42,174 bases of DNA, taken from the NCBI GenBank assembly GCA_003142185.1, contig PLOR01000116.1, positions 1 through 42,174 of the forward strand, written 5' to 3'. Shown here piece after piece: positions 1,676 through 15,359 of this stretch (position 1 is its first letter; every line of letters starts with the position of its first letter). The notes under the pieces are model-generated. The model was not told the DNA's origin. It ran no database searches and was given only the letters and a program-made list of their open reading frames with translations. The position numbers and the translations under genes are program-made. Origin of the DNA: Bryobacterales bacterium. GTDB lineage: Bacteria; Acidobacteriota; Terriglobia; Bryobacterales; Bryobacteraceae.

Positions 1676-2236
1676 CTACCAAAACCCGCTCTGAAATACC
1701 GGCTTCCTACAGCGTACGCAGAATTCGCTGGTCTTGACGTCCAGGCGCTCTACGGCGTGGCTGGAGGTCATCACGCAGCGCCAGTCTCCGCAATGGCGCA
1801 GGCCGAAGGTGTGGCCTAACTCATGGACAGATTCTTTCAGCAGGCGCTCGCGCAATAAGTCGTCGCGGCGCGGTAGGCCGTAGAAAGGTTCAGCCAGGCG
1901 CGCGGTCGAGACTACCGCGCAGTTACCGTCTAACTGCGCCTCGCCGAAAACGAAGGTGAGTACCGGCACGTATAAGTCGCAGGAAGTGACTCCTAAGACA
2001 CGCGAATCGGAATCGGCAGCGCGGTCTAACTGCTGTAAGATAGCGCTGGAGTAATACTGGCCGCGGCGCCCGTCGAGCGCGAAATCGAGCTCCATGTTGC
2101 GCTGGCTGACGCGGCAGGGCACGCGAAACGCGCGGGCGAGCCCCGCCGCAAGCTGCTCCAGCAGATTGAGCGCCGGCTCCTGTGAGAACCCGTTCCCGCC
2201 CGAACCGGCCAGCGGAACGAGTTGAATGGACTTCAC
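1676..2236 (-). CDS. amzA: Archaemetzincin-type zinc metallopeptidase
   Basis: This 186-residue protein carries the full archaemetzincin signature. HELGHTFGLRH spans residues 138-148, with His138, His142 and His148 as zinc ligands and Glu139 as catalytic base. It is followed by Cys149 and Cys154, then CVM with the Met-turn Met, a conserved Lys, and a closing CVRC pair (Cys173, Cys176) that would bind a structural zinc. The family consists of small cytoplasmic peptidases found in archaea, animals and scattered bacteria; natural substrates are poorly known. There is no signal peptide. The GTG start overlaps the TGA stop of the sigma-54 activator (GTGA), so translation is coupled and the gene is the last of the redox-signalling operon. 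The reason for that association is unknown. The family assignment is very secure. Confidence 0.93.
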   Translation of the reverse strand: MKSIQLVPLAGSGGNGFSQEPALNLLEQLAAGLARAFRVPCRVSQRNMELDFALDGRRGQYYSSAILQQLDRAADSDSRVLGVTSCDLYVPVLTFVFGEAQLDGNCAVVSTARLAEPFYGLPRRDDLLRERLLKESVHELGHTFGLRHCGDWRCVMTSSHAVERLDVKTSEFCVRCRKPVFQSGFW

Positions 2237-3597
2237 CGCAAACCGTAACGCCGCAGCTTGTTGTACAACGTGGTGCGGTCTATATCGAGGATGCGCGCTG
2301 CGCGCGATAGGTTGTGCTGCGTTTCGCGCAGGACGCGCTCAATGTGGGCCCGCCCGATGTCCTCCAGCGTCTGGCCGCCCTTGGGAATCTCGGCCTCGAA
2401 TTGGAACGAAAAATCGGTGGCGCGGATCTCCGGCCCGCGGCATACCACCAGGGCGCGCTCGACGGCGTTTTCGAGCTCGCGCACGTTGCCTGGCCAGTCA
2501 TGGCGCATCAGCAGGTTCAGCGCTTCGCCGCCGATCTGCGGCGCCGGCCGGCTGGTGGCCATGGAGTACTTGTTGAGAAAGTGGTTCACCAGCAGCGGAA
2601 TGTCTTCCTTGCGTTCGCGCAGGCTCGGCAGGTCGATACAAAAGACGTGCAGCCGATAGTAGAGATCGGGGCGGAAAGCGCCGTCCTTGACCAATCCCTC
2701 CAGGTTCTTGTTGGTGGCGGCGATGGCGCGAAAATCCACTTTGATGGTTTGATTGCCGCCCACGCGCGTGATTTCCTTTTCCTGCAGCACGCGCAGCAGG
2801 TCGGTCTGCGTGCGCAGGCTGATGTCGCTGATCTCATCCAGAAACACCGTGCCGCCGTCGGCCACTTCGAACTTGCCCTTCTTGCGATACTGCGCCCCCG
2901 TGAACGAGCCTTTTTCATGACCGAACAGCTCGCTTTCGAGCAGCGTTTCGGTAAGCGCGCCGCAATGAATGGTAACCATCGGCATGTAGCGCCGCGGGCT
3001 GGCTGCGTGAATGGCGCGCGCCACCACTTCCTTGCCAGTGCCGCTTTCGCCGGTGATCAGCACGGTGGCCTCGGTGGGCGCCACCATTTCGATCAGCTCG
3101 ACCACCTTCTTCATGGCGGGGCTCTTGCCGATCAGCTCCATGCCGGGCGAGACTTCCTGCAGGTTCTCGCGAAGCCGCACCACCTCGCGGCGGGTACGCC
3201 TGTGCTCCAGCGCTTTTTCCACCAGGTGAGAAAGCTCGTCGGGATCGACAGGCTTGGTGATGTAATCGTAGGCGCCGTTCTTCAACGCCTGCACGGCGGT
3301 ATCCACCGACGCGTAGCCGGTCATGATGATCACCGAGAGGTCCGGATCGGCTTCGTGCAGGCGGCCCTGCAACTCCATGCCGTCCATACCGGGCATTTTG
3401 ATGTCGAGCAGCGCGATATCGAACTCCGCCTGCTGGATGGTTTCGAGCGCCTCCCGCCCGCTACCCACCGGCCGCGCCGTGTAGCCTTCGCTGGTGAACC
3501 ACTTCCCCAGCGAATCGCGCACCACCAGCTCGTCGTCCACAATCAGGATTCGGCCCTTGGTTTTCACCGACGCTGTGCTCTCCACTGCCGTTGCCAT
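2233..3597 (-). CDS. NtrC-family sigma-54-dependent response regulator
   Basis: The product has 454 residues with three domains. A receiver domain spans about residues 15-130, with acidic residues DD at 21-22, phospho-acceptor Asp65 in LLDIKMPG and Lys115 in the TKP turn. An AAA+ domain spans about 150-380, with Walker A GESGTGKE at 183-190, the sigma-54 contact loop GSFTGA at 230-235 (Ser in place of the usual Ala) and Walker B VFLDEI at 251-256. A C-terminal Fis-type helix-turn-helix follows (NLSRAARILDIDRTTLYNKL). The start at 3597 is preferred because AAGGGGAGGAAGG sits just before it; an upstream in-frame start would overlap the kinase. It follows the haem-motif kinase by 40 bases and is its obvious partner. 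It should activate sigma-54 promoters, and a candidate lies upstream of the H-protein-like gene at 8089. Confidence 0.96.
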   Translation of the reverse strand: MATAVESTASVKTKGRILIVDDELVVRDSLGKWFTSEGYTARPVGSGREALETIQQAEFDIALLDIKMPGMDGMELQGRLHEADPDLSVIIMTGYASVDTAVQALKNGAYDYITKPVDPDELSHLVEKALEHRRTRREVVRLRENLQEVSPGMELIGKSPAMKKVVELIEMVAPTEATVLITGESGTGKEVVARAIHAASPRRYMPMVTIHCGALTETLLESELFGHEKGSFTGAQYRKKGKFEVADGGTVFLDEISDISLRTQTDLLRVLQEKEITRVGGNQTIKVDFRAIAATNKNLEGLVKDGAFRPDLYYRLHVFCIDLPSLRERKEDIPLLVNHFLNKYSMATSRPAPQIGGEALNLLMRHDWPGNVRELENAVERALVVCRGPEIRATDFSFQFEAEIPKGGQTLEDIGRAHIERVLRETQHNLSRAARILDIDRTTLYNKLRRYGLR

Positions 3598-3637
3598 TTC
3601 CTTCCTCCCCTTACCGCTCCCTTTGGTCGCGGCTCCG

Positions 3638-5233
3638 TTACTTGCTTGCCGCCGCAACCGCCGCCGCGCTCAGCGGCAGGGCCACGCGAAATTCCGTTCC
3701 CTGCCCCGGCGTCGAATCCACCTTGATCTCGCCGCCGTGCTGCTCCACGATGCTGTACGCCACGGCCAGGCCCAGGCCGGTGCGGTTCTGATCCTCCTTG
3801 GTGGTGAAGAAGGGATCGAAAATGCGCGGCAACACGTCCTGCGGAATGCCGCATCCGGTGTCCTTCACGCGCAGGGCCGCTTCGCCGGTCGAGCCATCGA
3901 GCTCGGTGATCACCTCCAGGCGGCCGCCCGAAGGCATCGCCTCCGACGCGTTCATCATCAGCACCAGCGCCACCTGCTGGATCTGATTGGCGTCGCAATC
4001 CACCGGCGGCAGGCCTTCGGCGAACCTTTCCACCAGCTCGATGTTCTGCATCTCCAGTTTGTGCTTCACCAGCAGCACGGCGTGGTCGACGATGGTGTTC
4101 AGGTCGTTGGGCTCGCGCTCGCTGGCCTTCTGCCGCGAGAAGGTCAGCAGGTTCTTCACCAGCTCGCCGCAGCGCTTGCTTTCGCGCTCGATGGTTTGCA
4201 ACTGCTCGGCCATCTCGTCGCGGTTCGCCATTTCGCTCTTCAGCACGCCGCGCTCTACCAGCCGCGCGTAGGTCAGGATGCCGAACAACGGGTTGTTGAT
4301 CTCATGCGCCACGGTGGCGGCCAGCTTGCCGATGGAGGCCATCTTTTCCGAGCTGAGCAGCGTGCGGTGGATGCGCTCCAGCTCGGCCGTCTTGCGCCGC
4401 ACCTGCTCCTCAATCTTGGCCTGGACCCCGGCCACTTCCGCGGTCATTTTGTTGAAGCCGGCGGCCAGGTAGCCCAACTCGTCGTCGGAGCGCACCGGCA
4501 GGCGGTAATTCAAATCACCTTCGCGCACCCGGTGCGTGCCATCGATCAGCTCCTTCACCGGCCGATAGACCACCCGCCAAATGAAGGCCACCGCCAGGCC
4601 GGAGCCGAGCACTATCCCGCCCAGCAGAAACCAGCCGAGCGAGGCCTGATTGTGCGCGATCTGCGCGTCCACCGGGGCGAGCGACAACTGCGCGTCCACC
4701 ACCCCCAGCACCCGCTGGCCGGCATCGTGCACGTGGCAAGCCGCGCTCGAGCATTCGGGCGCGTTGGCGATGGGGCGGATTACGGCGATCAGGTGATGGC
4801 CCTGCTTGTCCCAAAACGGACGCGCGCGATCCGGCCGATTGAGTTTGGCGAGTGGCTGCGATTGCGCGTGGCAGCCATAGCAGGCCTCGGCCGACTTATC
4901 CACCGCCGTGTCGATTTCCCGCGCTTCGGTGGAGAATACGATGTGCCCGTCCCGGTTGAAGATGCGGATGCGCTGAATGCCGGGCTCGCTGCCCACCTCT
5001 TGCAGCACGTTGTACAGCGCGTCGCGGTCATGACGCATCATGTCGTAGCGGGTGCTGCGTAAGATGATGTCCGCCACGCGGTCGGCCGATTGCACCATCA
5101 AACCTTCCGACTGGCGGCGCTCCACGCGGAGATTGATGAACCCGAACAGGGTGAAGAACACAGCCGTACTCACGATCACCGAGACCGCCAGTTTAGCGGC
5201 GAGTCCCAACCGGACTGAGCGGAGGAAGGTCAT
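3638..5233 (-). CDS. Membrane histidine kinase with c-type haem motifs in the sensor domain
   Basis: The product has 531 residues. Transmembrane helix 1 is at about 12-34 and helix 2 at about 198-220, enclosing a periplasmic sensor region. That region contains CYGCH at 118-122, a classic CxxCH haem attachment motif, and CSSAACH at 161-167, a Cx4CH variant. A HAMP linker follows (about 221-275), then a coiled segment, a HisKA domain with His310 in HEINNPL, and a HATPase domain with an N-box (MMNASEAM), DTGCGI and GLGLAV. Kinases of this shape are known or proposed to sense redox state or ligands through bound haem. The start ATG overlaps the stop of the NrfD-like gene (ATGA), and the sigma-54 response regulator is downstream. 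Haem attachment is predicted only from the motifs; no cytochrome maturation genes are in the window. Confidence 0.95.
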   Translation of the reverse strand: MTFLRSVRLGLAAKLAVSVIVSTAVFFTLFGFINLRVERRQSEGLMVQSADRVADIILRSTRYDMMRHDRDALYNVLQEVGSEPGIQRIRIFNRDGHIVFSTEAREIDTAVDKSAEACYGCHAQSQPLAKLNRPDRARPFWDKQGHHLIAVIRPIANAPECSSAACHVHDAGQRVLGVVDAQLSLAPVDAQIAHNQASLGWFLLGGIVLGSGLAVAFIWRVVYRPVKELIDGTHRVREGDLNYRLPVRSDDELGYLAAGFNKMTAEVAGVQAKIEEQVRRKTAELERIHRTLLSSEKMASIGKLAATVAHEINNPLFGILTYARLVERGVLKSEMANRDEMAEQLQTIERESKRCGELVKNLLTFSRQKASEREPNDLNTIVDHAVLLVKHKLEMQNIELVERFAEGLPPVDCDANQIQQVALVLMMNASEAMPSGGRLEVITELDGSTGEAALRVKDTGCGIPQDVLPRIFDPFFTTKEDQNRTGLGLAVAYSIVEQHGGEIKVDSTPGQGTEFRVALPLSAAAVAAASK

Positions 5234-6411
5234 CCTACGGCGAGTGGGTCTACCTCCCGTTCTTCCGTTCTCACCAATTCGGGCTGAGCCGAGTGCGCCT
5301 CAAAAACGGGGAAGTGCTCCCCGATCACGCGGAAGATCGCAAAGCCGACGGCCACCAGCGAGAGCGTCACCGCTATCTCGCTCCACTTCGGGATGTAGTG
5401 CGTGCCGCTTCCCGCCTCAAGCCCGGTGATGCCCACGTTAAGCCGATTGGCGATGAAGCTGAACACCACCATCACCGAGCAGAAGTACAGGGCGGCCGGG
5501 TTGCGGCGGATGCGCGACTGGTAGAGCAGCGCGGTGGGAACCAAGGCCAGCGCGATCTCGAGCAGGAAAAGCCATGTCTCGGTCCGGTTTCGCAGCAGCA
5601 GGCCGAAAGCATCGCGGTGCAGCAGGTCGAGGAAGCGGATCCACAGATACACGCTCATCACCACCGCCAGCACGCGCGCGATGCTCGCCAGCAACGGCAG
5701 CTCCAGCGCGCGGCCGAAGGCGCGGCTACTGTGCCACGATTCGAAAATCGTCATCGCCAGGCCCACCCCGATTGCCGAAACAAAAAACAGCAGCGGCAGA
5801 ATCGGCGTGTACCACAGCGGATACAGTTTTTCCGGCACGATCAGAAACAGCGTGCCGAGCGAACTCTGGTGCAGGGTGGAAAGCAGCACGCCCAGAATCA
5901 TCATCGGCACCGAGATGCGGTGAATCCACTCCAGCGGCTTGTGCAGGCCGAAGCGCTCGAAGACGATGGGGAGGAATTCGAGGAACAACACGGTGCTATA
6001 CAGCGTGACGCACCAGGCCACCTCGAACATCACCGAGTGCGGATTCCACATCACCAGCGGATGCCACATCCGGTCGGGACGGCCGACGTCGTAAAGCAGG
6101 CCCAACGTCACCAGCAGATAACCCAGGAAAGCGGTGAGGATGGCGGGGCGCAATACCGGGCGGTATTGTTTGATGTTGAAAATGTGCACCATGGCTACCA
6201 GCGTGAACCCGCCGGCGGCCAAACCCACGCCGCACATCACGTCGAAGCCGATCCAGAGGCCCCACGGGAATTTGTCGCTCAGGTTGGTGGAGCCGCCCAG
6301 GCCGTAAAAAATGCGGAGATAGGTCGCATACGCTCCGCTGAGCAGAATGGCGGCGAAAATCGCCCGCCACACGGTGATTTTGGGGACCACTTTCTGGAAC
6401 CTGGCAGTCAC
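5230..6411 (-). CDS. HybB/NrfD-type polytopic quinone-interacting membrane subunit
   Basis: The product has 393 residues and about ten hydrophobic segments. The N-terminal part (FPWGLWIGFDVMCGVGLAAGG, read as FPWGLWIGFDVMCGV then GLAAGG) is characteristic of the HybB branch of the NrfD/PsrC family. These are integral membrane subunits that exchange electrons between quinones and an iron-sulfur partner. The GTG start overlaps the stop of the iron-sulfur gene (GTGA) and its own stop overlaps the kinase start (ATGA), so the three proteins are made together. The last residues are hydrophilic and acidic. There is no catalytic large subunit (hydrogenase, molybdopterin enzyme or multihaem cytochrome) in the window. 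A hydrogenase role therefore cannot be assumed. An electron relay between the quinone pool and an unlinked enzyme, or a redox input to the neighbouring kinase, is possible. Confidence 0.9.
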   Translation of the reverse strand: MTARFQKVVPKITVWRAIFAAILLSGAYATYLRIFYGLGGSTNLSDKFPWGLWIGFDVMCGVGLAAGGFTLVAMVHIFNIKQYRPVLRPAILTAFLGYLLVTLGLLYDVGRPDRMWHPLVMWNPHSVMFEVAWCVTLYSTVLFLEFLPIVFERFGLHKPLEWIHRISVPMMILGVLLSTLHQSSLGTLFLIVPEKLYPLWYTPILPLLFFVSAIGVGLAMTIFESWHSSRAFGRALELPLLASIARVLAVVMSVYLWIRFLDLLHRDAFGLLLRNRTETWLFLLEIALALVPTALLYQSRIRRNPAALYFCSVMVVFSFIANRLNVGITGLEAGSGTHYIPKWSEIAVTLSLVAVGFAIFRVIGEHFPVFEAHSAQPELVRTEEREVDPLAVG

Positions 6412-7154
6412 TTGCGCGGTCCCTCCTTGCGCGCCACCTCGGCGCGGCGGTTAGTGATCCACCAGATGCCGCCCAACAGAACGGAGCCCGTCGATACCAC
6501 GTCCGGCAGCAGTTCCAACACGCGCCAAGTGAGCATGGGCATCGACTCGCGCGGCAGGTTCATGCGCAGTCCGATCTGTTCGAACGGCACCGCCGAAAGG
6601 AAGAACACCGAGGTGCCACCGACCTCGGAGAGGCCATAGATCTTTTGGTAGTACTGGTCCGGCTTGGCCGCCAGCCGCGTGCGCGCTTCGGCGATCAAAG
6701 CGTCGCGCTCGCCATTGGAGGTGGCGCCTGTCGGGCAGATTTCGGCGCACGCCGTCAACTTCCCCGCACTCTGGCGGACAGAGCACATGTCGCACTTGCG
6801 CATCCGCGGAAGCCGGCTGGACCATTCGTAGGTCGGCACCTGGAACGGGCAAGCCTGCATGCAATACCGGCATCCGATGCACTTGGCGGCGTCATAGGTC
6901 ACGGGACCCAGCGCGGTTTTCTGCAAAGCGCCGACCGGGCAAACCGAAGCGCACGCTGGCTGTAGACAATTCATACATAGACGGCGGCAAAAGTGGTCGC
7001 CGTGCGTCACGATGGTAGTGAGCTTGTGCGCTGAGATCGTTTCCTCGGCAGCGATTTTGTCGTTGTAAGGGAGGCCCCAACGTTCCGCGCAGGCACCCTC
7101 GCAAGCCCTGCACCCTATGCACAGGGTACTGTCGTAGAGGATTGCTTTAGGCAT
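6408..7154 (-). CDS. HybA/DmsB-like four-cluster ferredoxin with C-terminal membrane anchor
   Basis: The product has 248 residues with cysteine groups fit for four [4Fe-4S] clusters: CIGCRACEGAC at the N-terminus, CMNCLQPACASVCP, CIGCRYCMQACP, and a fourth group starting CDMC and ending CAEICP. A hydrophobic stretch near residues 215-235 followed by Arg residues should be a single membrane anchor. There is no Tat or Sec signal before the first cysteine motif, unlike periplasmic HybA. The domain is therefore either cytoplasmic or exported with a partner not seen here. The gene has AGGGG 7 bases before the ATG and overlaps the NrfD-like gene, its probable membrane partner. The 263-base gap upstream, before the H-protein-like gene, suggests it may have a promoter of its own. 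Confidence 0.92.
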   Translation of the reverse strand: MPKAILYDSTLCIGCRACEGACAERWGLPYNDKIAAEETISAHKLTTIVTHGDHFCRRLCMNCLQPACASVCPVGALQKTALGPVTYDAAKCIGCRYCMQACPFQVPTYEWSSRLPRMRKCDMCSVRQSAGKLTACAEICPTGATSNGERDALIAEARTRLAAKPDQYYQKIYGLSEVGGTSVFFLSAVPFEQIGLRMNLPRESMPMLTWRVLELLPDVVSTGSVLLGGIWWITNRRAEVARKEGPRK

Positions 7155-7417
7155 ATCAGACCCCTAACTCTGTTTTAGCAGAAATTGACCTCAATGTGTA
7201 GAAAAAAATGACAGTGGGGGTTATTGAAATTCACCTGGGGCATTGAAATCATGGGGATCAGGGCGGGGGGCCAACTCAAACGTCGATTTTTCCGACCGGT
7301 GTGGGGCGGGTGCCCTCGCCCGCGTCGGCCCCCCGGTCCGACAGCCGAGCCAGGGGGCTTGGCACCGGGCCGGGGATAAATGTTGGCAGGTCGGGGACTG
7401 TCCGGGACCTGCCGCAC
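7155..7417. other. Intergenic gap with direct repeat and hairpin
   Basis: No gene is seen here. On the plus strand ATTGAAAT occurs at 7223-7230 and 7242-7249, each flanked by runs of G (GGGG), about two helix turns apart. They could be operator half-sites for the iron-sulfur gene downstream on the minus strand. An ATTGACCTCAAT near-palindrome lies at 7183-7194. A strong hairpin at 7385-7411, just after the H-protein-like stop, has a 7-base outer stem (GCAGGTC/GACCTGC) and an inner GGAC/GTCC stem. It has no T-run, so an intrinsic terminator is not certain. The stretch between the repeats and the hairpin is G/C-rich and looks like decayed repeat DNA. I found no GG-N10-GC sigma-54 element facing the iron-sulfur gene. 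Confidence 0.4.
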
Positions 7418-8089
7418 CTACGCGGTGAGGAAGAACTCGCCGGTGGTCTGTTTCCAGTTGGAACCGGGGACTTCAGCCAGCAGGTCCTCGGCGGGACGGC
7501 CGCCATCGGCTGCGGCGGCGCCGGCCAGCATCGGTTGATGGCTGTAGAGGCGGTCCACAGCCAGCCGCATCCACTCATGAACCAAGCCCTTTGGTATGAG
7601 GTTGCGAGTGGTGCTTTCCTCATCTGGAACATTAACTGTCACCAACCAGCCTTTGCCGTACGGATCGCTGCGCACCAGCGCCGGGTTGTTGACGACTTCA
7701 AGATTGATAGCCATGACCTCACCCTCGGTGGGTGAAACCATTTCCGTTTTCTCGCCGTTCCGATAGAAGGAGAGGATCTTCTGGCCCTGACGAACCCACT
7801 GGCCGGGCCTGGGAAGTTCGATCTTCTCGATCCGTCCGGCGAGCGCCGCGGCAAACTCATCCGCACCCATACGCACTACACTCTTGCGCTCTTGCACCAG
7901 CCAAGTGTGACCAGGGTGATAGGAGACCTGTCCCGGCGTGTGAAACCCACTGACGTAGTCCCCTCCGACCAAAGCCGGGGCGGTATCGCGCTCCGGTGCA
8001 GTAGCCATACTAAGTGCCTTCTTGCGATTCAAGAGATAATCCAATACGATGAAGGTCAGGAACGTGACCAGAACCAGAATGACTGTCAT
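7418..8089 (-). CDS. Membrane-anchored GcvH-like protein lacking the lipoyl lysine
   Basis: The product has 223 residues. An N-terminal membrane helix (about 2-20) is followed by NRKK, which by the positive-inside rule places the rest in the cytoplasm. Residues of about 58-160 match glycine-cleavage H-protein: YHPGHTWL, VRMGADEFA, a GQ turn, SPTEGEVMAIN, and NPALVRSDPYGKGWL. Aligned by eye with GcvH, the lysine that carries lipoate falls on a Gly (in RNGEK). Lipoylation at the normal site is therefore unlikely, although a Lys two residues later might substitute. A C-terminal tail of about 60 residues has no recognised domain. No glycine cleavage genes are nearby; the neighbours are the iron-sulfur and NrfD-like genes, so a structural role in an electron-transfer complex is more likely. 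AGAAAGGATGGAAG precedes the ATG. Confidence 0.8.
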   Translation of the reverse strand: MTVILVLVTFLTFIVLDYLLNRKKALSMATAPERDTAPALVGGDYVSGFHTPGQVSYHPGHTWLVQERKSVVRMGADEFAAALAGRIEKIELPRPGQWVRQGQKILSFYRNGEKTEMVSPTEGEVMAINLEVVNNPALVRSDPYGKGWLVTVNVPDEESTTRNLIPKGLVHEWMRLAVDRLYSHQPMLAGAAAADGGRPAEDLLAEVPGSNWKQTTGEFFLTA

Positions 8090-8118: not shown

Positions 8119-8135
8119 GGCACGGCAAGGGCCAA
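8119..8135 (-). promoter_or_regulatory. Candidate sigma-54 (-24/-12) promoter for the GcvH-like gene
   Basis: On the minus strand this reads TTGGCCCTTGCCGTGCC, with GG and GC exactly 10 bases apart as sigma-54 requires. The -24 box (TTGGC) is close to consensus and the -12 box (GTGC) is fair. The -12 GC lies about 31 bases before the ATG at 8089, giving a short leader with a ribosome site. A sigma-54 activator is encoded in the same block. GG-N10-GC can occur by chance in GC-rich DNA, so this is a candidate only. Confidence 0.42.
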
Positions 8136-13392: not shown

Positions 13393-15327
13393 TCATTGGA
13401 ACTGGAACCAGTTCAGATTGCCCGTGCCGCTGGAAGGGCCGTTCTGGAAGACGACGAAGAGATTCTGCACTCCGGCGGCGCCGGAAACGGTGGCGGTGAC
13501 GGTCTGCCACGTTTGCCAGCCGCCGGTGTTGGGAATCGTGGCCTGCGCGAGCAGCGGTCCGGTGGGGCCACCGGAATGGAACTCGAGCGTGCCGGTGCTG
13601 CCGCTGCCATTCGCCACCCGCACCGAGACCGAATGCACGCCCGATCCGAAATCGATATTCCGGTATTCTGCCCAATAGCCAGGGGCGGAATATCCCAGGT
13701 CGAATCCGTTATCTGTGTCGGTACAAGGTTCGGTTTGTAGTTCGCCGGCTGAGTTATAACCGCCGAGTTGGTTGTAACTGGAAGCCTGGATTTGGGCGGT
13801 TGCGGGTATCGCGGGAGTCCAACACTCCGGACGGCAGGAATATTCAAGGTTGGCATCCCATTGAAACGTGGCGCCGGCGTAGGAGGGCAGCGAATACTGG
13901 AACGATGTTCCGTTCGACACAACCTGGAACTTCTGGGTTGCCGCTGAATCGTTGTAGACCACCAGCACGCGCGGCCGGTCGCGAGCCTCGGAGCGATCGG
14001 CGCCGGCAATGCCACTGTGGCGAAGCGGATTGATAAACGCCGCGCTGATGAGTCCAGGCGCGTTGTTCGACCACACGCGCACCGCCCCGGGGAGCACGAA
14101 CTTACTGAAATGCCCCAGGGTGTAATAGTCGATGTTATTAGTGACCGCGCCGGTGCTGGAGTTGACCGTAATCAGGCCGCTGCAATCGTTGCAGCCGCCT
14201 GGGATGAACGGTCCCCGGTTCTGGTCGAGCGCCAGGCTCCATTTGACGTAGGACCGGCTCCAGTTCCGCATCGAATGGATGATCATCTCGAAGTCGGTGC
14301 GCACTTCGTCGGCGATCCACGTTCCGCCCGAGGCTTCGGTGACGTACTGGTTGAACTGCGGGAAGAGGTTGTGCAGGGTGGTCATGGCGCCGGGAGGGCC
14401 GCCGTACCAATGCCAGGCGACGCCGGCAATTTGAGAAGAGGCGGCGAGTGTCGCATCCCCGAAAACCGTTTCCGGGTATGACGGCGTGTCCCAGTTGTGG
14501 TCGTAGACGAGAATCTTGGTATTGATGTTTGCGGTGGCCAGCGCGGGGAGAACGTAGGCCTTCAAAATGTCGAGCTGGTCGGTGGCGGGCATGGATGAGC
14601 CCGGATAGCCGGTTGGAACGTTGAGGGGTTCGTTCTGGATGGTGAGATAGTCGACTGGGACGCCGGCGGCCTGGTAGGCCTGCACGTACTTGACCAGGTA
14701 GTTAGCGAAGGCGGTGTACTGAGCCGGGAGCAACTGGGATGCGGTGGCCGACGTGCCGCCGTACATGGAATCATTCCCTTTCATCCAGGCAGGCGGGCTC
14801 CAGGGAGTGCCGAGCATTTTGATTTGCGGGTTGATGGTCTTGGCCTGGAGAAGCAAGGGGAGAATGTCGGCCGTGTCGTGAGTGACGGAAAAGTTCGGCA
14901 GACTCGCGTTCGTGCTATCCGCGGAGGTGTCGTCGTAGGAATAGACGGGAGGCCGCGCGATGTCGGAGGAGCCCATGGGATTACGAAGGAAGCTGACACC
15001 GATGCCCTGCGAGTGGCTGAAGAGCGACTGCATGACGCCGCCGAGCGCGGCGGGGGGGACCTTCTCGTTCAGCAGGTAAGCCGCCGAATCGGTCATGGAA
15101 GCGCCGAACCCCTCGATGGTTTGTTCGGCTTGGGATTCGGAAATGAATATGGATGGAAGCTGGCTGGAAGCGCCGGGTGTGAACGAAACCGTCGGCCGCG
15201 GCGCCATCAGCGTTTGCTGATCGTCGGTGGTCAGCCAGACGCTGACGACTTGGGCGCTTGCCAGCGCACCGCTCGCGGCCCAGAGGCACAGCGCCGCGAA
15301 AGTTGAAGACACTCTTCCAGACAGCAT
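13393..15327 (-). CDS. GH30-family glycosidase with C-terminal CBM6-like module
   Basis: The product has 644 residues from the ATG at 15327; a TTG four codons upstream is the alternative start. A signal peptide (FAALCLWAASGALASAQ) indicates secretion. The catalytic part shows the GH30 pattern: IEGFGASMTDSAAYLL, GTPWSPPAWMK, the acid/base Glu233 in TIQNEP, a VAWHWYGG strand and the nucleophile Glu331 in VTEASGG. The closest GH30 subfamilies act on beta-1,6-glucans, glucosylceramide-like bonds or xylans; specificity cannot be read here. Residues of about 505-644 form a beta-sandwich of CBM6 type (DNGFDLGYSAPGYWAEY, ending NLNWFQFQ) that would bind glycan. It lies downstream of repeat R3 and is followed by the NHL remnant. 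Confidence 0.92.
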   Translation of the reverse strand: MLSGRVSSTFAALCLWAASGALASAQVVSVWLTTDDQQTLMAPRPTVSFTPGASSQLPSIFISESQAEQTIEGFGASMTDSAAYLLNEKVPPAALGGVMQSLFSHSQGIGVSFLRNPMGSSDIARPPVYSYDDTSADSTNASLPNFSVTHDTADILPLLLQAKTINPQIKMLGTPWSPPAWMKGNDSMYGGTSATASQLLPAQYTAFANYLVKYVQAYQAAGVPVDYLTIQNEPLNVPTGYPGSSMPATDQLDILKAYVLPALATANINTKILVYDHNWDTPSYPETVFGDATLAASSQIAGVAWHWYGGPPGAMTTLHNLFPQFNQYVTEASGGTWIADEVRTDFEMIIHSMRNWSRSYVKWSLALDQNRGPFIPGGCNDCSGLITVNSSTGAVTNNIDYYTLGHFSKFVLPGAVRVWSNNAPGLISAAFINPLRHSGIAGADRSEARDRPRVLVVYNDSAATQKFQVVSNGTSFQYSLPSYAGATFQWDANLEYSCRPECWTPAIPATAQIQASSYNQLGGYNSAGELQTEPCTDTDNGFDLGYSAPGYWAEYRNIDFGSGVHSVSVRVANGSGSTGTLEFHSGGPTGPLLAQATIPNTGGWQTWQTVTATVSGAAGVQNLFVVFQNGPSSGTGNLNWFQFQ

Positions 15328-15359
15328 GGCCAGTCTCAACTTTCATCGTAGCGCATGGA

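Follow-up and report, generated by a model that had tools for sequence, protein, structure and literature searches.

Results

The window, that is, the whole 42,174-nucleotide stretch of Bryobacterales DNA analysed here, contains a six-gene cluster on the minus strand that is led by a gene for a GcvH-like protein, which we call GcvHL (7418..8089). Behind it on the same strand lie genes for a 4Fe-4S protein of HmcB/HybA-like type without a Tat signal (6408..7154; Pfam Fer4_11; 242.4 bits to HmcB, cut-off 420), an NrfD family membrane subunit of HmcC/HybB-like type (5230..6411; Pfam NrfD, E 9.6e-22; 322.8 bits to HmcC, cut-off 550), a sensor histidine kinase whose sensor part bears a CxxCH and a CxxxxCH motif (3638..5233; Pfam HisKA, HATPase_c and HAMP), a sigma-54 response regulator (2233..3657; REC, AAA+ and Fis-type HTH by Pfam) and an archaemetzincin-family metalloprotease (1676..2236; NCBIfam archmetzin, 160.7 bits, cut-off 145). 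By their Pfam domains, the HisKA and HATPase_c kinase and the adjoining REC regulator constitute a two-component pair. The six genes may be read as a single transcript. A gap of 263 bp (window 7155-7417) separates the GcvH-like gene from the Fe-S gene and exceeds that in a number of relatives. The complete set of six genes is present in 22 of 33 loci, and in one locus (L062) the GcvH-like gene has the opposite orientation. Elsewhere in the window, positions 13393-15339 encode a GH30-type glycosidase with a CBM6, for which the best NCBIfam match, endo-1,6-beta-glucanase, is below its cut-off. A similar kinase-regulator pair is found on contig C66 of the same genome, with a kinase that is 39% identical to that of the cassette and has no CxxCH; in the 18 kb examined there, no GcvH-like gene was found near the pair.

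GcvHL is a protein of 223 residues that starts at an ATG codon. Its residues 57-166 match Pfam GCV_H with 68.0 bits (E 9.1e-19, cut-off 22.2), a model that is matched by all 34 rows of alignment A1, the window included. The A1 profile matches solved H-proteins, the best being 3ift (E 5.8e-26), and the NCBIfam gcvH equivalog TIGR00527 is not reached (65.4 bits, cut-off 115.85). The AF2 model made from the A1 alignment (34 rows; mean pLDDT 85.5) superposes on the pea H-protein 1htp with a Z score of 18.3 and an rmsd of 1.7 over 131 aligned residues at 24% identity. Foldseek returned 22 matches to the model at E <=0.001, all with titles of H-proteins, a GcvH-like protein, or lipoyl synthase (LIAS) complexes or entries that hold an H-protein; 8ugo_E, among these matches, is named H-protein. 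Across A1, where identity reaches down to 24%, 21 columns are invariant in the 34 rows, among them the DGG motif, which sits in the C-terminal part of GcvHL past the GcvH-aligned range. The homology to GcvH and the well-kept fold motifs proposed in an earlier, sequence-only reading of this DNA are thus borne out by the GCV_H match, the profile alignment and the comparison of the model with 1htp, and we regard the GcvH fold of GcvHL together with the loss of its lipoyl lysine as well supported.

The lipoyl hairpin of GcvHL aligns to GcvH without a gap in the profile alignments, and the lysine column falls on Gly112 (codon 7754..7756, minus strand). In the AF2 model this residue lies at the tip of the hairpin, where the chain turns from strand 104-110 into strand 113-118. 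The change goes beyond the lysine alone, given that in A1 the ESVKA-type hairpin is replaced as a whole, typically by R-(N/D/G)-G. A shift of the lipoyl lysine to Lys114 was rejected, because only 22 of 34 A1 rows have Lys at this position, and the closest relative (L037) has Arg. The claim of the sequence-only reading that glycine takes the place of the lipoyl lysine therefore agrees with both the ungapped alignment and the hairpin-tip placement, and it stands against the objection that a neighbouring Lys might occupy the site.

The same substitution was sought in homologues and is found there. A profile search over the open reading frames of the loci gave 111 distinct rows, of which 6 have lipoyl-type motifs (ESVKA, EAVKA, ESGKW and the like). 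The 105 rows outside these motifs have Gly at the site in 62 cases, Lys in 4 (none in a lipoyl motif) and a gap in 2. Gly at the lysine site is family-wide, and a point loss in a single genome was rejected. In a tree of 109 rows, retained from 130 after thinning of close relatives, the lipoate-less rows split from 8 canonical-like ones (SH-aLRT 81, not starred), and a single loss of the lipoyl lysine is likely, if not firmly shown. Among the rows without the lipoyl lysine on this tree, 24 coded families of the window's phylum are represented, alongside named contigs of Acidobacteriota and the phylum to which L068 belongs (Gemmatimonadetes). At E 1e-25 or better, 9 of 121 Gemmatimonadetes genomes have a match, which in L103 carries a lipoyl-type motif; at E 1e-6 there are matches in 259 of 297 genomes, a number in which canonical GcvH is mixed in and which is not a family count. 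A GcvH-like gene pair in genome G297 (L110:7738-8868) has its lysine in ESGKW/ESAKW, unlike both the GcvHL family and canonical GcvH. The window's own genome has a separate canonical GcvH on contig C51, with the hairpin ESVKA, and one LplA/LipB-type domain as lipoate-attachment machinery; no lipoate ligase was found among the 11 window open reading frames scanned with Pfam and NCBIfam.

At its N terminus GcvHL has a predicted transmembrane anchor at approximately residues 3-19 (8033..8083, minus strand), followed by NRKK, based on hydropathy and charge counts and on a helix over residues 2-25 of the AF2 model. A hydrophobic N-terminal segment is present in 34/34 A1 rows, with no K or R ahead of it and one to five in the 15 residues behind it. 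By the positive-inside rule, the flank rich in K and R is on the cytoplasmic side, and receiver domains act in the cytoplasm. Because K and R follow the anchor, and because relatives carry a receiver between the anchor and the GcvH-like domain, this domain probably faces the cytoplasm. The membrane anchor and its cytoplasmic side, both part of the sequence-only reading, are in line with the charge pattern in all 34 rows and with the placement of the receiver in relatives.

Upstream of the gene, 29 bp before the ATG, lies a sigma-54 type -24/-12 site, TGGCCCTTGCCGTGCC (8119..8134, minus strand), a putative promoter that matches the generally known sigma-54 consensus used for the scan at 8 of 11 positions. 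In the window this is a fair match that alone is not striking, given that 9.5% of shuffles reach its score. The scan was extended from the window to 31 relatives, giving 32 upstream regions that represent 32 of the 34 A1 genes. Within the stretch from -110 to -20, a score of at least 7 of 11 is reached in all 32 regions and of at least 8 in 26, compared with 1, 0 and 1 of 32 at a score of at least 8 in three control stretches farther upstream. Over the 32 regions the site lies 28-87 bases from the GcvH-like gene. The site is also present in L055 and L057, where the contig, covered for 2.7 and 5.4 kb downstream, respectively, shows no cassette; in L056 and L059 the downstream stretch does not extend far enough to judge whether a cassette is present.

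The sensor part of the kinase contains a haem c type motif, CYGCH (residues 118-122; 4868..4882, minus strand), that is at least 90% conserved in alignment A2, and a second haem-type motif, CSSAACH (residues 161-167; 4733..4753, minus strand), in which C161, C166 and H167 are invariant in 25 A2 rows. Across 55 kinases, CxxCH and CxxxxCH occur together in 47, CxxCH alone in 2, CxxxxCH alone in 3 and neither in 3. The sensor has a weak Pfam Mcp40H match below the cut-off and a profile match to 3b42 (E 0.0012). In Foldseek, a WalK-YYCH model and WalK sensor domains lead, and GSU0582 (3b47) ranks tenth (E 4.9e-4); 3b42 and 3b47, the PDB relatives of the sensor, presumably bind haem c. The sensor model is weak (pLDDT 74) and suggests a PAS-like periplasmic fold at most, and the two motifs suggest that the sensor would be loaded with haem.

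The Fe-S protein of the window has no N-terminal extension in frame and no Tat signal, yet it has a HybA-like tail helix. Tat-like signals are present in 12 of 61 Fe-S proteins, and 10 of these 12 have a protein with at least three CxxCH motifs within 9 kb, compared with 5 of the 49 Tat-less ones (Fisher p 1.8e-6, with related rows, and with L106 counted among the 49 despite a signal-like N terminus missed by the pattern). No window open reading frame of at least 60 residues has two or more CxxCH motifs, and the window belongs to the Tat-less architecture without multihaem proteins. In NrfD, a crude hydropathy split places 15 K or R in 90 residues inside and 11 in 133 outside, a weak hint at the usual N-in topology. 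In the same genome, contig C65 (L070:9741-16000) holds a second NrfD cluster, which includes a Tat-bearing molybdopterin-type protein, a protein with five CxxCH motifs and a pair of GcvH-like proteins lacking the lipoyl lysine; a TatA-type protein lies farther off. Two Gemmatimonadetes clusters of GcvH-like and NrfD genes lie beside proteins with 9 to 21 CxxCH motifs (L105:1-16200) and beside a protein with 13 (L107:9566-16744), suggesting outward electron transfer chains.

For a broader view we surveyed 75 loci of at least 5 kb, which were selected and not drawn at random, and from which the window is excluded; two of them, L069 and L130, are apparently one contig. They comprise the 33 loci of a first set minus L056, plus stretches chosen from profile match lists, with L110 and L127 excluded for having no lipoate-less member and L084, L093 and L124 for being too short. 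The Fe-S and NrfD genes, noted as neighbours in the sequence-only reading, each occur in 60 of the 75 loci, the kinase in 57, the sigma-54 regulator in 46, the archaemetzincin in 39 and a receiver-GcvH fusion in 11. All seven fusion proteins scanned with Pfam have receiver and GcvH domains in a single frame. In the anchored fusion type the A1 profile matches in two pieces around the receiver, the first of them weak (0.9-16.8 bits). Inspection by eye shows that the phospho-acceptor Asp, the KPF lysine and the acidic pair are all retained in nine fused receivers, and a comparison of fused receivers with those of cassette regulators covered 53 receivers, all from the same locus set. On the tree, the receiver fusion requires two gains.

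Fusion and separate regulator do not occur together in this survey: the sigma-54 regulator was not found in any of the 11 fusion-locus stretches. Among the 57 loci with a kinase, the regulator is present in 0/10 fusion loci and 44/47 others (Fisher p 6.6e-9), and the archaemetzincin in 0/10 and 39/47 (p 1.0e-6), p-values that are overstated because the rows are related and not independent. Four of the 75 loci (L087, L117, L118 and L128, two of them stretches of less than 12 kb) have the kinase, the regulator and the GcvH-like protein, with NrfD not found, and in seven NrfD is present and the kinase was not found. In 10 loci the survey found no NrfD, no kinase and no sigma-54 regulator as a gene of its own. 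Three of these (L059, L067 and L109) end close to the GcvH-like gene; five (L074, L076, L080, L083 and L129) extend over at least 14 kb and are not short, and therefore the GcvH-like gene can stand apart from the cassette. In two loci of the window's phylum (L117:3289-5358 and L118:3614-5659, from G022 and G035), a histidine kinase has as neighbours an archaemetzincin, a Cys-rich GcvH-like protein and a sigma-54 regulator. The L117 kinase is fused to what Pfam identifies as an iron-only hydrogenase large-subunit domain, and L118 is similar in size and order; a kinase of this type could be a hydrogen or redox sensor. Three paralogues (L106:12245-13099, L072:13234-14088 and L086:12220-13326) have an N-terminal C-x5-C-x2-C, with no hydrophobic anchor counted.

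Discussion

We read GcvHL as a cofactor-free connector between a redox two-component system and an NrfD/Fe-S complex, and give this a probability of about 0.5. The protein would be a GcvH fold without lipoate, held by one helix at the cytoplasmic face of the inner membrane, that works as a protein-protein adaptor within a sigma-54-controlled redox module. A periplasmic haem-type sensor kinase would report the redox state and pass phosphate to a receiver, which in the window type would act through sigma-54 promoters and in the fused type would be the one built into the GcvH-like protein itself. The GcvH-like domain would serve the quinone-linked Fe-S/NrfD membrane complex as a subunit for regulation or assembly, docking on it and coupling it to the kinase system, with the signal presumably travelling in this order. 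The receiver fusions, the kinase loci without NrfD, the sigma-54-type site and the content of the cluster argue for such a connector. Against it stand the 10 of 75 loci without NrfD, kinase or sigma-54 regulator and the 7 of 75 with NrfD and without a kinase, the Tat-less Fe-S protein with its HybA-like tail helix, which leaves the side ambiguous, the 6 of 55 kinases without CxxCH together with the weak sensor model, and a sigma-54-type site that in the window is no better than fair. The structural or electron-transfer role proposed in the sequence-only reading is kept in its structural part. Electron transfer by GcvHL itself finds no support, because there is no Cys in any invariant or nearly invariant A1 column.

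The main rival, which we consider doubtful, would give GcvHL no more than a structural or assembly role as a subunit in a quinone oxidoreductase of Hmc/HybAB-like type, with the two-component system controlling transcription only and the receiver fusions being a lineage-specific shortcut. Such a subunit would be expected where it is found, beside Fe-S and NrfD genes (60/75 loci for each); several relatives have two or three GcvH-like paralogues round Fe-S/NrfD, some with multihaem-type cytochrome genes, and a second NrfD cluster in the window's own genome has two GcvH-like paralogues, with no kinase found in a 16.9-kb stretch. However, there are four loci with kinase and regulator in which NrfD was not found, the receiver fusion was gained twice on the tree, and the sigma-54 regulator was not found where the fusion occurs. 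A purely structural role in the NrfD complex is not the only tie of GcvHL; kinase and receiver are linked to it too.

Two further explanations start from the ancestry of the protein. GcvHL could still be an acyl or lipoyl carrier that is modified elsewhere, for example at Lys114, or a carrier of another group. The well-kept GcvH core, a lysine two residues off the lost site and the lipoate-attachment domain in the genome point in this direction, but position 114 is Lys in just 22/34 rows, with Arg in its place in the closest relative, nothing is left of the ESVKA motif, the scan of 11 window open reading frames found no ligase, and the genome has a separate canonical GcvH with ESVKA, which makes a carrier improbable. 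Least credible of all is a relic of a duplicated gcvH that has no present role and is carried along in the operon: even though none of its residues can be singled out as catalytic or as a cofactor site, 21 columns including DGG are invariant over 34 A1 rows at identities down to 24%, the gene stands first behind a positionally conserved sigma-54-type site, and the family occurs in two phyla.

The connector could also be taken a step further. Tentatively, and with the odds rather against it, the haem-sensing two-component system might directly switch the Fe-S/NrfD quinone oxidoreductase through a cofactor-free GcvH-fold effector, with the receiver placed in the linker of anchored GcvH-like proteins in certain lineages and replaced in others by a sigma-54 regulator encoded separately. 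If true, a receiver-GcvH output domain would control a membrane redox complex at the post-translational level. If GcvHL is a connector, annotations such as 'glycine cleavage system protein H' misname an entire protein family of Acidobacteriota and Gemmatimonadota, and what textbooks present as a swinging-arm carrier would have been converted for signalling or docking in redox complexes. The fusions of receiver and GcvH domains would then provide a concrete example, open to testing, of a two-component system that acts on a redox complex in the membrane without going through transcription.

Our search of an open-access library found no paper describing the GcvHL family. Already known are the GcvH fold, partners of Hmc/HybAB type, and LbpA as a precedent for a GcvH-like protein recruited to a redox system; the kinase, the regulator, the archaemetzincin, the sigma-54-type site, the signalling link and the receiver fusions are added here to what the sequence-only reading contained. 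The closest likeness in fold is GcvH itself (PF01597, TIGR00527), with which GcvHL shares its motifs and whose Pfam cut-off it passes; GcvHL differs in the missing lipoyl lysine, the N-terminal membrane anchor and the C-terminal part with DGG. GcvH-fold side families are more distant: Streptococcus GcvH-L (5a35) compares with a Z score of 11.8, weaker than canonical GcvH, and GcvHL reaches 44.9 bits with TIGR03077 not_gcvH (cut-off 144.05) and 37.1 bits with NF045810 (cut-off 150), a GcvH-related protein whose kinship is by name.

The partner proteins resemble the Hmc and Hyb complexes, the layout of which is generally known, and their best NCBIfam matches are HmcB and HmcC, followed by HybA and the Ni/Fe-hydrogenase cytochrome b subunit. 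Compared with Hmc/HybAB, the window Fe-S and NrfD proteins fall below the equivalog cut-offs (242.4 of 420 and 322.8 of 550 bits), the multihaem reading frame and the Fe-S Tat signal are missing, and a GcvH-like protein and an archaemetzincin are added. LbpA, of the Hdr-like sulfur oxidation pathway, is likewise a GcvH-like protein that was recruited to a redox system. Among the 11 window open reading frames scanned with Pfam and NCBIfam, no hdr-like genes were found. The 95 LbpA aligned in PMC6067878 are reported to have a strictly conserved lysine in common; LbpA thus keeps the lipoyl lysine, whereas the GcvHL family is without it.
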